A stretch of DNA of 64,000 nucleotides from Brachyhypopomus gauderio (taxonomy: Eukaryota > Chordata > Actinopteri > Gymnotiformes > Hypopomidae). Positions 41,401-46,100 of this stretch are shown in pieces. The DNA lies in the NCBI RefSeq assembly GCF_052324685.1, contig NW_027506873.1, positions 1,540,499 to 1,604,498 of the forward strand. The letters are read 5' to 3'. Both the position numbers and the translations under genes were made by a program. The notes beneath the pieces are model-generated. The model was not told the origin of the DNA. It searched no databases and was given only the letters and a program-made list of their open reading frames with translations. Position 1 is the first letter of the stretch, and every line of letters starts with the position of its first letter.

Positions 41401-44400
41401 AGATTAGCAGTTTCTGAAATACTCAGAACCAGCCCGTCTGGCACCAACAACCACGCCACATTCAAAGTCACTTAAATCACCTTTCTTCCCCATTCTGATG
41501 CTCTGTTTGAACTGCAGCAGATCGCCATAAACATGTCTACATACATAAATTCATTGAGTTGCTGCCATGTGATTGGCTTATTTGACGTTTGCGTTAATGA
41601 GCAGTTGGACCGATGTACCTAATAAAGTGGCCAGTAAGTGTATAATAACAATGAATAGATAAGTGCAATGGTCAAATTGCAATCAATTAATTATTTGGTT
41701 GGTGATATAATTTCATCTGAGATTGAGAGCTTAGTGGCCGGTGAGTGTATATTTGCAGTAGAATTTACCTAATGCAACCAGAGGTGTCGCTGGTCTGAAA
41801 TGGTCTGAGATATCAGTTTATTCTGATTTTTGTGCTACAAAGTATTGTAATCATAACAGGGTTCCCTGAAGAGTAAAACCAGCAAATGATTCCCATCAGA
41901 GATGCAGGAACCTGCTTCTTCACATTTAGAGAGAATCTAAACAAAAAAATCCCAAAGCAACATAAAGATGCAGCATTATTTTTTCGTGTTGAATAAGTCA
42001 AACAGATGCCAAAGTGACCAGCAGCCTTTCGCAGTGATCTGCTCATGCATTGTGTCTGGTGTCTTACAGTCGTTATACCTGGGCCCCATTCTGCGATTTG
42101 GCACAGAAGAGCAGAAGCGGCAGTGGATTGTTCCTTTCACCACGGGGGAAAAGGTGGGCTGCTTCGCTTTGAGTGAGCCAGGTACTCGCATCTCCATCTC
42201 TGCCATCCACAGAACATACTAACAGATAACAGATCTGCTCACAGAGATACGAACTGATGGTCGCACCCAAGTGTCTGATCACTGGAAATCACAACATTTT
42301 GTGCTTGTTGAGTTTACACTCTTCTAGATCGGTTTCTCTAACAGCACTAATAGAAAGAAGAAGGACTGTCTGAAACTAAGAGTCTGTTGACCATAAACTG
42401 AAAGATTGGCTCCATATAAATCCAAACATAAGAGATCTTGAGGATCAGCTTTTCGAGATGCGTGGTTTTAGTGCATTCCTTTTGGCACTGTGTATACAGA
42501 AGTTTCACATTTTAAAAACCAACATCTTTCACAACCAAGATGCAGGGGCAATTCTCCCTGTGTGTTCCGCCTGACCAGGCACTTGTGTGTTCTGTGTTTT
42601 TGTGGGAAGGCAACGGCAGTGATGCGGGGGCGGCATCCACGGTGGCCCGTGAGGATGGGGACGGCTGGGTGCTGAACGGAACCAAGGCCTGGATCACCAA
42701 CTGCTATGATGCGTCTGCCGCTGTCGTCTTCGCCACGACGGACAAGAGCTTGAAACACAAGGTGTTTGCAATGTAGCAGACTGCTTTTGTTTTCTATAAA
42801 TAATGGATTTTTAGACCATACATCAGTTGTCTGCTTTTGCAGTAAAAGTGGCCTGAGCTTTGTCTCTGTGCAGTACATTTGCAAACGAATAAATTATGCA
42901 GAGCTGCTCATCCTGGGTGAGCAGCAGAGACTGATGCTGAATCAACGTTTGTCTGTTAGTTAGTCTGTTGTTACAAGGAGTAACACTATGAAGGGTTGTA
43001 TATAAAACTTGGACTGAAAATAGCGTTTACAACAGTTAATACACTATTTCACAATGTGTAAACGAAACACAACATGGCTAAGGATTCTATAAACTGACTT
43101 GAAGAAATACTTTTCATGGGTAAATATTTTTTGTGTCTCCTCAGGGAATCAGCGCATTCTTGGTGCCTATGCCTCATCCTGGATTATCTCTGGGGAAGAA
43201 GGAGGATAAGCTGGGAATCCGAGCCTCCTCCACAGCCAACCTCATCCTGGACGACTGCCGTATCCCACTCAGCAACTTACTGGGCCAGCGTGGGATGGGA
43301 TTCAAGATTGCCATGGTGATTCATATGAACCTTCTCTTTATAACCAAACGGGTATTTCAGAAATAAGAATAAAAACAGACAGGTTTAGCCCCCCCCTTCA
43401 TTACCTGCTTCATGAGCTTTGTTCTGTCTCACCTGCAGCAAACTCTGGACAGCGGGCGTATTGGGATAGCATCACAGGCCCTTGGCATTGGCCAGGCAGC
43501 CCTGGACTGCGCGGCTGACTACGCCCACAAGAGGATGGCATTTGGAGCACCGATAGCGAAGCTACAGGCCGTACAGGTACACCGCGCCCGTCCCCCAGGT
43601 CGGGCTCACTGCTTCGTTAAGGCCTCTGTAGTTACAGTATCCAGCACAATGTTTAGTTTATCATCAGTTCTTTAGAGATCGAAGTAATGCAGTTACCATG
43701 AGTGTTGCGGTGAGAGGCAGCAGACATGACGACCTCTTTAACGTTGTCACACCGACGTTTATTCACACACACACACACGACAAAGTCCCGCGCAGACAGC
43801 ACAAGCACTCAGTACATGGAACATCTACTACACGCCACGAGCTTCAGACGAGCACGGGACATGGCGAGAACGCACATTAAATAGATGAACTACACAATCC
43901 CCAGTGTTCACGAGACGAGCCACAGGTGAGACCGATGAACATACCCACGAACGACCCACACTCACGGAACTACAAACATGGACATAACCAGACGCAGACT
44001 ACATAAACACATGCCCAAAAGGAGGGGTCCGGAGCTGTCCCGTAACAACGAGAAACCTGAAAAACCTCCATACCAACCATTATTAAAGTATCCAAGGTTA
44101 ATATGATGTGTTTCTTGTTTTGGATATGGTTACAGAATCAAGCCTCACAGTTTACCGAACCCTTACGCCTCCCAGTTTTCACAGACTGTGGCGAGAAGTG
44201 AAGAGACTGAAGCATTTTTAACACAATTCTCTTTTCCAGTTCAAACTGGCGGACATGGCCGTGGCGATAGAAAGTGCGCGTCTTCTTACCTGGAAAGCCG
44301 CTCTGCTACGCGATGGAAAGCAACCTTACTCTAAGGCTAGTACATCATCCTCACTCTCCCGGTACATCATCCTCACTCTCCCGGTACATCATCCTCACTC

Positions 44401-46100
44401 TCCCAGTACATCATCCTCACTCTCCCAGTACATCATCCTCACTCTCCCAGTACATCATCCTCACTCTCCCGGTACATCATCCTCACTCTCCCGGTACATC
44501 ATCCTCACTCTCCCGGTACATCATCCTCACTCTCCCGGTACATCATCCTCACTCTCCCAGTACATCATCCTCACTCTCCCAGTACATCATCCTCACTCTC
44601 CCGGTACATCATCCTCACTCTCCCGGTACATCATCCTCACTCTCCCGGTACATCATCCTCACTCTCCCGGTACATCATCCTCACTCTCCCGGTACATCAT
44701 CCTCACTCTCCCGGTACATCATCCTCACTCTCCCGGTACATCATCCTCACTCTCCCGGTACATCATCCTCACTCTCCCGGTACATCATCCTCACTCTCCC
44801 GGTACATCATCCTCACTCTCCCGGTACATCATCCTCACTCTCCCGGTACATCATCCTCACTCTCCCGGTACATCATCCTCACTCTCCCGGTACATCATCC
44901 TCACTCTCCCGGTACATCATCCTCACTCTCCCAGTACATCATCCTCACTCTCCCGGTACATCATCCTCACTCTCCCGGTACATCATCCTCACTCTCCCGG
45001 TACATCATCCTCACTCTCCCGGTACATCATCCTCACTCTCCCGGTACATCATCCTCACTCTCCCGGTACATCATCCTCACTCTCCCGGTACATCATCCTC
45101 ACTCTCCCGGTACATCATCCTCACTCTCCCGGTACATCATCCTCACTCTCCCGGTACATCATCCTCACTCTCCCAGTACATCATCCTCACTCTCCCAGTA
45201 CATCATCCTCACTCTCCCAGTACATCATCCTCACTCTCCCGGTACATCATCCTCACTCTCCCGGTACATCATCCTCACTCTCCCGGTACATCATCCTCAC
45301 TCTCCCGGTACATCATCCTCACTCTCCCGGTACATCATCCTCACTCTCCCGGTACATCATCCTCACTCTCCCGGTACATCATCCTCACTCTCCCGGTACA
45401 TCATCCTCACTCTCCCGGTACATCATCCTCACTCTCCCGGTACATCATCCTCACTCTCCCGGTACATCATCCTCACTCTCCCGGTACATCATCCTCACTC
45501 TGCCGGTACATCATCCTCACTCTGCCGGTACATCATCCTCACTCTGCCGGTACATCATCCTCACTCTGCCGGTACATCATCCTCACTCTGCCGGTACATC
45601 ATCCTCACTCTGCCGGTACATCATCCTCACTCTGCCGGTACATCATCCTCACTCTCCCGGTACATCATCCTCACTCTCCCAGTACATCATCCTCACATGG
45701 GTTTACCTTCTTCTTCACACCTGCTCCCTCTCTGCATGCTGTGTGATGCTTCCTGTCTCTGCTTCCTGTCTCATTGTACGTCTCAATTCTTATGGCTGCA
45801 GGAGGCCGCGATGGCAAAGCTGGCCGCGTCTGAGGCAGCGACATTCGTTTCCCATCAGGTACGAGATTCCTCCTGGATAATGGGACACACACATACACGT
45901 GTGTATACATATAAGTGATCTAACCCTTCTGTCTTGTCCACATTAAGGCCATCCAGGTACTGGGGGGTATGGGTTATGTGACGGACATGCCGGCCGAGAG
46001 GCACTACCGTGACGCCCGCATCACCGAGATCTATGAGGGCACCAGTGAGATTCAGAGACTAGTCATCGCCAGTCAGGTGCTGAAGGAATACCAGCAGTAG
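38416..46100 (+). CDS. acads: Short-chain acyl-CoA dehydrogenase, mitochondrial
   Basis: FAD enzyme of the mitochondrial matrix; catalyses the first step of beta-oxidation on C4-C6 acyl-CoAs and passes electrons to ETF. Exons: 38416-38443, 39111-39262, 39450-39599, 42070-42181, 42610-42761, 43145-43315, 43439-43576, 44240-44335, 45802-45858, 45948-46100; phases close, 402 aa. Arg-rich, acid-poor N-terminus [20 protein letters not shown] fits a transit peptide. Family signature 1 [18 protein letters not shown] spans exons 4-5; signature 2 runs [20 protein letters not shown] to [14 protein letters not shown], with the catalytic base Glu382 in IYEGT. LITTLE else is odd in the protein, but exon 8 ends AAG|GCTAGT, so its donor is GC, not GT, and the intron after it is a tandem array. 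Confidence 0.95.
38444..39110. other. acads intron 1
   Basis: No repeat or gene recognised. Confidence 0.5.
39728..40011. mobile_element. hAT-type MITE, 284 bp, in acads intron 3
   Basis: Ends CAGGGCTTAATTTG and CAAATTAAGCCCTG are exact inverse repeats, flanked by perfect 8-bp duplications GTATAAAC (39720-39727 and 40012-40019). Interior shares GGCGAACGTAA and GCGAACTAGTAA with the element at 59680-59936, so they have a common source. Non-coding. Confidence 0.92.
40196..40440. repeat. Possible degenerate interspersed repeat
   Basis: Contains two spaced copies of CACACTACA-GAC and CGCACTACATGACCG-type sequence (40230-40350), a pattern seen in some fish DNA transposons. It is cut by the Tc1/mariner element that follows. 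Family not determined. Confidence 0.3.
40444..41747 (-). mobile_element. Tc1/mariner element, full length with broken transposase, in acads intron 3
   Basis: TA lies at both sides; the left end is CACTCACAGGCCACTTTATT and the right end is the inverse GTGGCCGGTGAGTG. The right side carries the end motif twice (41618-41640 and 41732-41747) separated by about 105 bp. Transposase fragments on the minus strand include [18 protein letters not shown] and [14 protein letters not shown] (40885-41139), and [22 protein letters not shown] sequence at 40661-40927, with several frame breaks. The same extra block flanks the copy at 24655. Confidence 0.9.
41748..42069. other. acads intron 3, right end
   Basis: No feature beyond the intron; the acceptor GTGTCTTACAG is at its end. 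Confidence 0.5.
43577..44239. other. acads intron 7
   Basis: No exon. A short CA run at 43766-43778 and a block (43690-44070) of higher GC than the flanks, possibly an old mobile element, but no termini were found. Confidence 0.35.
44336..45801 (+). repeat. acads intron 8: 22-bp tandem array of about 62 copies
   Basis: The unit is GGTACATCATCC followed by TCACTCTCCC. The first, slightly altered copy starts at 44338, two bases after the apparent GC donor; the array ends near 45698, leaving about 100 bp of ordinary intron before the acceptor TATGGCTGCAG. Variants cluster: CAGTAC units at 44405-44460, 44555-44590 and 45170-45240, and a block of seven or eight CTCTGCCGG units at 45497-45650. Because 22 is not a multiple of 3 and no frame contains a stop, open frames of 541 and 490 codons result. 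Confidence 0.97.

Follow-up and report, generated by a model that had tools for sequence, protein, structure and literature searches.

What does it mean when an intron carries no stop codon in the reading frame of the exon that precedes it? The question is raised by intron 8 of the Brachyhypopomus gauderio acads gene, which houses a tandem array of a 22-bp unit. We analyzed a window of 64,000 nt (the whole stretch of DNA under study), in which acads lies on the + strand. A tblastn search with human SCAD retrieved eight matches between positions 39131 and 46097, one of which covers two exons. The nine exons located in this way are referred to below as exons 2-10, a numbering that presumes an upstream exon 1. 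When joined, with intron 8 cut at a GC donor, they form one open frame whose sole stop is the terminal one at 46098-46100, and the protein encoded by joined exons 8-10 matches human SCAD in PDB with an E value of about 1e-48. The glutamate of the Y-E-G-T sequence in the C-terminus is presumably the catalytic Glu of SCAD. Normal splicing of intron 8 was taken to proceed from 44335/44336 to 45801/45802, as no other join gives back the conserved protein; the AAG/GC...CAG/GAG join would yield KEAAMAKL, as in human SCAD, which points to a GC-AG intron. The coordinates are collected in Table 1.

Table 1. Features of acads around intron 8 (positions in the window; slashes mark splice junctions)
Feature	Position	Strand	Basis or remarks
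acads exon 8	44240..44335	+	tblastn with human SCAD, 69.7% identity, aa 309-341
acads intron 8, 1466 nt, phase 0, GC-AG	44336..45801	+	donor AAG/GCTAGT, acceptor GGCTGCAG/GAG
Intron 8 GC donor	44336..44342	+	predicted U1 duplex; 44340-44342 (GTA, +5 to +7) are the array's first three bases
22-bp array, GTACATCATCCTCACTCTCCCG	44340..45696	+	TRF; no stop in + frames
Seven adjacent C-variant units (CTCTGCCG)	45484..45637	+	
Non-repeated 3' part of intron 8	45697..45801	+	two of three frames open, third has a stop at 45744
acads exon 9	45802..45858	+	
acads intron 9, 89 nt	45859..45947	+	contains the 45878-45880 stop
acads exon 10	45948..46100	+	native stop 46098-46100, out-of-frame stop 45979

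Several other features were observed in the window. On the - strand, two overlapping open frames of 189 and 181 aa at 33269-34305 match Pfam families, the first Sleeping Beauty-type HTH and Tc3 transposase HTH, the second DDE_3; judged by these matches, the region is a Tc1/mariner-type transposase split over two frames. A 257-aa open frame at 47813-48586, also on the - strand, matches the PMP22/claudin family (PF00822, E 5.9e-27), and an open frame at 36480-36824 on the + strand has a beta/gamma crystallin match (PF00030, E 4.3e-9). The frame at 36157-36498 beside the latter reads, as we take it, like a crystallin N-terminal extension and has no Pfam match. Searches of the window for tRNA genes and for Rfam families at gathering scores returned nothing.

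The preliminary description of the locus, made from the sequence without database searches, had claimed about 62 copies of a 22-bp unit without a forward stop codon, and TRF analysis bore this out: 61.7 copies of period 22 with 99% matches, and 0, 0 and 0 stop codons in the + frames, compared to 40, 42 and 42 in the - frames. The array consists of 61 full copies (44 A, 10 B and 7 C variants) followed by 15 nt. These three are the only full unit types, only two sites vary across the 61 copies, and the variants sit in adjacent runs, for example CCCCCCC and BBB; the run of seven C variants is the mark of local duplication. With so few unit types and with variants in runs, the array is either young or well homogenized. 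The array itself exceeds chance: a 20-nt stretch of the unit, searched with a tolerance of three mismatches, had no match in 100 dinucleotide shuffles of the window. Units of tens of bases in tandem, all inside one intron, place it among intronic minisatellites, or VNTRs. In titles and abstract openings dealing with intronic minisatellites or VNTRs, intron retention, exitrons, GC-AG introns, 3n introns and ACADS repeats, the array of acads intron 8 was not described.

A predicted RNA fold of 12 units (264 nt) was no better than those of shuffled sequences (z -0.43), and the array had no Pfam family match at E values up to 1; in the open frame as a whole, the exon 8 part alone matched PF00441, with a score under the family's cut-off. 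Two joined units matched no viral contig, as expected for animal DNA. The end of exon 8 was considered as a source of the unit and set aside: CAACCTTACTCT of the exon and CATCCTCACTCT of the unit are identical at 10 of 12 positions, which is weak as a free local match, since dinucleotide shuffles score as well in 50 of 1000 cases and other 60-mers in 66 of 882. When the comparison with the A unit was anchored at the array edge, the score was equalled by 136 of 3000 shuffles, 228 of 2812 window 27-mers and 111 of 896 acads exonic 27-mers. When whichever of the A and B units fitted better was used, the numbers for the same three sets were 28 of 2000, 68 of 2812 and 38 of 896; these proportions (1.4 to 4.2%) come from a test picked after the B score had been seen and are at most suggestive of an exon 8 origin.

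It was further claimed that introns normally carry early stops, and the contrast is real: in the seven other located acads introns the exon end is followed by the first in-frame stop at distances of 7, 16, 39, 13, 49, 97 and 58 nt, versus +1543 for intron 8. How surprising is this? Since 22 equals 1 modulo 3, each frame passes through every phase of the unit, and openness in three frames is one fact rather than three. The unit contains 10 C, 6 T, 4 A and 2 G; among 200,000 of its shuffles, 63% were stop-free as circular units. The same was true for 31% of 100,000 random 22-mers from the + strand of the window and for 46% of 100,000 from the + strand of 39100-46100, the latter figure being raised because that region contains the array itself. 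Out of seven tandem-repeat loci in the window with a period over 20, some of them short, two are stop-free in all frames of the + strand (the acads array and 28259-28427) and none on the - strand. The locus at 28259-28427 is a second C-rich array, with 23/43-bp units. At 7762-8781 lies an array of about 30 copies of a 34-bp unit, which looks like a pair of diverged half-units (ACCACCATGACCCTGTT / ACCACCCTGAACCCATT); none of the array's six frames is free of stops. Six of the 66 possible single changes of the acads unit create a stop, and with two variable sites the array does not hold enough independent changes for selection against stops to be assessed. The openness of the array is thus weak evidence of function and requires no special cause; its likeliest account is a chance result of unit composition. 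A point against this account is the 3' tail of the intron, open in two of three frames, for which unit composition is no explanation.

In our judgment, with a probability of roughly 0.8, the array is an intronic minisatellite, near-neutral and either recently expanded or well homogenized, whose edge lies at base +5 of a GC-AG intron. Its openness would follow incidentally from a unit rich in C and poor in sense-strand purines, and would be maintained by homogenization and not by selection for coding. Array position, homogeneity, openness and frame arithmetic were read directly from the sequence of one assembly. Near-identical repeat units are hard to count in assemblies, and both the copy number and the C at donor position +2 could be assembly or base-call errors, an explanation that is compatible with the other readings but improbable, given that the variants occur in ordered runs and that single-copy-like flanks join the array to acads exons.

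What would retention of intron 8 encode? According to the preliminary description, the exon 8 frame stays open to 45880, and retention would cause no early stop and would replace the C-terminus that carries the Glu. As a genomic reading the first statement holds, as the frame runs from 44243 without a stop until 45878-45880, and the coding arithmetic of the second is right in outline. However, this stop lies inside intron 9, so that the end point applies only when introns 8 and 9 are both retained. With intron 8 retained and intron 9 spliced, the frame crosses exon 9 and ends in exon 10 at 45979, giving a product of 549 aa from 44243, 31 of them native and 518 new. As a rule, a transcript whose stop has no exon junction downstream escapes NMD; since the 45979 stop is in the last exon, escape is expected. 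The claim that the intron puts exon 9 out of frame stands, 1466 being 2 modulo 3.

The 22-bp period, 1 modulo 3, makes copy number decisive for the outcome of retention. We changed it in silico, counting the partial copy as the 62nd. With 62 or 65 copies, the retained frame stops at 45979 in exon 10. With 61 or 64, it stops within the intron at 45744, 112 nt upstream of the exon 9-10 junction, and NMD is therefore expected. With 60 or 63, i.e., after removal of two units or addition of one, a single open frame connects exon 8 with the native stop at 46098, with an in-frame insertion of 474 or 496 residues, respectively. Because the array is open, repeat number is a three-state determinant of what retention would yield. 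Alleles with 3n copies might accordingly be imagined to provide a polymorphic, exitron-like form of SCAD that carries the inserted residues in frame and retains its native C-terminus. However, the 62 copies of the assembly are out of frame, and so large an insertion is unlikely to fold inside the C-terminal helical domain; of the readings considered, this is the least probable. Hardly more credible is a full modulo-3 switch, in which the array, as part of the GC donor, would direct leaked acads transcripts to decay (3n+1), to a repeat-encoded C-terminus that escapes decay (3n+2) or to SCAD that keeps its native C-terminus after a long in-frame insertion (3n).

The donor of intron 8 was examined next to those of the rest of the gene. 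This donor, AAG/GCTAGTA, is a GC site with 7 of 9 consensus matches, while the other seven located acads donors are GT. The array begins at intron position +5, and the predicted U1 duplex pairs positions -2 to +1 and +4 to +7, so that three of seven pairs (+5 to +7) involve array bases. The first array unit is thereby predicted to be a working part of the donor. Duplex energy, a crude measure of donor strength, is -6.6 kcal/mol for this donor and -5.2 to -8.1 kcal/mol for the other seven; being within their range, the intron 8 donor is not weak by this measure. GC donors make up under 1% of donors and are linked to alternative splicing in the account of PMC2490688; given this link and the array's share in U1 pairing, the array may have an effect on splicing.

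Decoy sites are plentiful. The GT at 44340, if used as a donor, would add 4 nt and lead to a stop at 45831 in exon 9. Every unit opens with GTACAT, a weak candidate decoy donor: A-type decoys (CCG/GTACAT) reach -4.3 kcal/mol by best local pairing, and B-type and first-copy decoys only -1.6 to -1.7 kcal/mol, with pairing off register. Should any of the 62 GTAC positions be used, translation would end at 45831 for 21 of them and at 45979 for another 21, and the other 20 would insert residues in frame and leave the native C-terminus in place. Candidate acceptors are fewer. The left edge aside, AG dinucleotides inside the array come from the 10 B units only, each preceded by an identical pyrimidine-rich stretch, and three of the 10 would keep the native C-terminus. 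The GC donor built in part from the array, the GTACAT decoy in each unit and the dependence on copy number modulo 3 are three points that go beyond the preliminary description.

These sites bear on the possibility that the array acts on splicing in the way of the ABCA7 intron 18 VNTR, its length shifting isoform ratios through repeated decoy donors and sites bound by splicing proteins; the effect would then be an altered SCAD output, and the open frame would be incidental. The ABCA7 array described in PMC5954066 has a similar architecture: its 25-bp repeat begins at the exon 18 donor and lies in a C-rich region, and transcripts retaining one unit through use of a cryptic donor were observed. 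By analogy, the three U1 pairs contributed by the first acads unit, the A-unit decoys at -4.3 kcal/mol compared to -5.2 for the weakest true donors and the 20 in-frame decoys among 62 would fit such a role. In contrast, every decoy is weaker than all eight true donors, fixed-register scores are +0.1 for the A unit, +4.1 for the B unit and +3.2 for the first copy, the true donor at -6.6 kcal/mol is not weak, and what repeat length altered in ABCA7, as reported in PMC5954066, was exon 19 skipping and not retention. We consider an array effect on splicing unlikely, yet rank it second to the near-neutral minisatellite, the likeliest account.

Splicing leakage from intron 8 is possible under the near-neutral minisatellite account, too. 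Leakage by retention, by one of the 62 GTAC decoy donors or by the 10 CAG decoy acceptors would generate transcripts open through the array, and their fate (an early end, a new C-terminus or the native C-terminus) would be set by the number of retained units modulo 3. Should such leakage take place, the locus would offer a natural test of repeat number setting, via the frame, the fate of a mis-spliced message for a fat-oxidation enzyme. If it does not, the locus is a clean case of a long open repeat frame without selection, for which base composition and homogenization suffice.

Among known systems, GC-AG introns are described in PMC2490688 as having donors that fit the consensus more closely; since the acads donor has T at +3, where the consensus is A or G, this fit is incomplete. 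Exitrons, as defined in PMC4484396, are parts of annotated coding exons, with the unspliced form as the usual coding form, and their splice sites are weaker than those of other introns. Acads intron 8 resembles them in that it is stop-free in the upstream exon frame (to 45878), so that retention keeps the frame open. It differs in that the conserved form of SCAD, judged by conservation only, is the spliced one, that at 62 copies a retained intron removes the native C-terminus and that the 62-copy length is no multiple of three. As for splice-site strength, the donor was scored and, though of the GC kind, is about average for the gene by U1 energy (-6.6 versus -5.2 to -8.1 kcal/mol). With the spliced form conserved, acads intron 8 is not an exitron in that sense. 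Stopless 3n introns are counter-selected in human (Jaillon et al. 2008, as cited in PMC4484396); acads intron 8 is stop-free throughout, but its 1466 nt are 2 modulo 3, and only alleles gaining one copy or losing two, modulo 3 (60 or 63 in silico), would belong to this class. In LHX3 intron 5 of dogs, a shortened repeat is reported to occur with aberrant splicing (PMC3223203). As far as described in PMC5954066, the ABCA7 VNTR differs from the acads array in that the repeat's first GT is the canonical donor, whereas the acads GC donor lies 4 nt ahead of the repeat, and in that RNA effects were demonstrated for ABCA7, whereas the acads array is known from sequence alone. The likenesses are a similar unit length (22 versus 25 bp), an array placed on the donor of the upstream exon (in acads from +5, within the predicted U1 pairing), a potential decoy donor in each unit and a period that is 1 modulo 3 in both, so that retention of one unit shifts the frame. 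The ABCA7 intron 18 VNTR is the best known analogue of the acads array.
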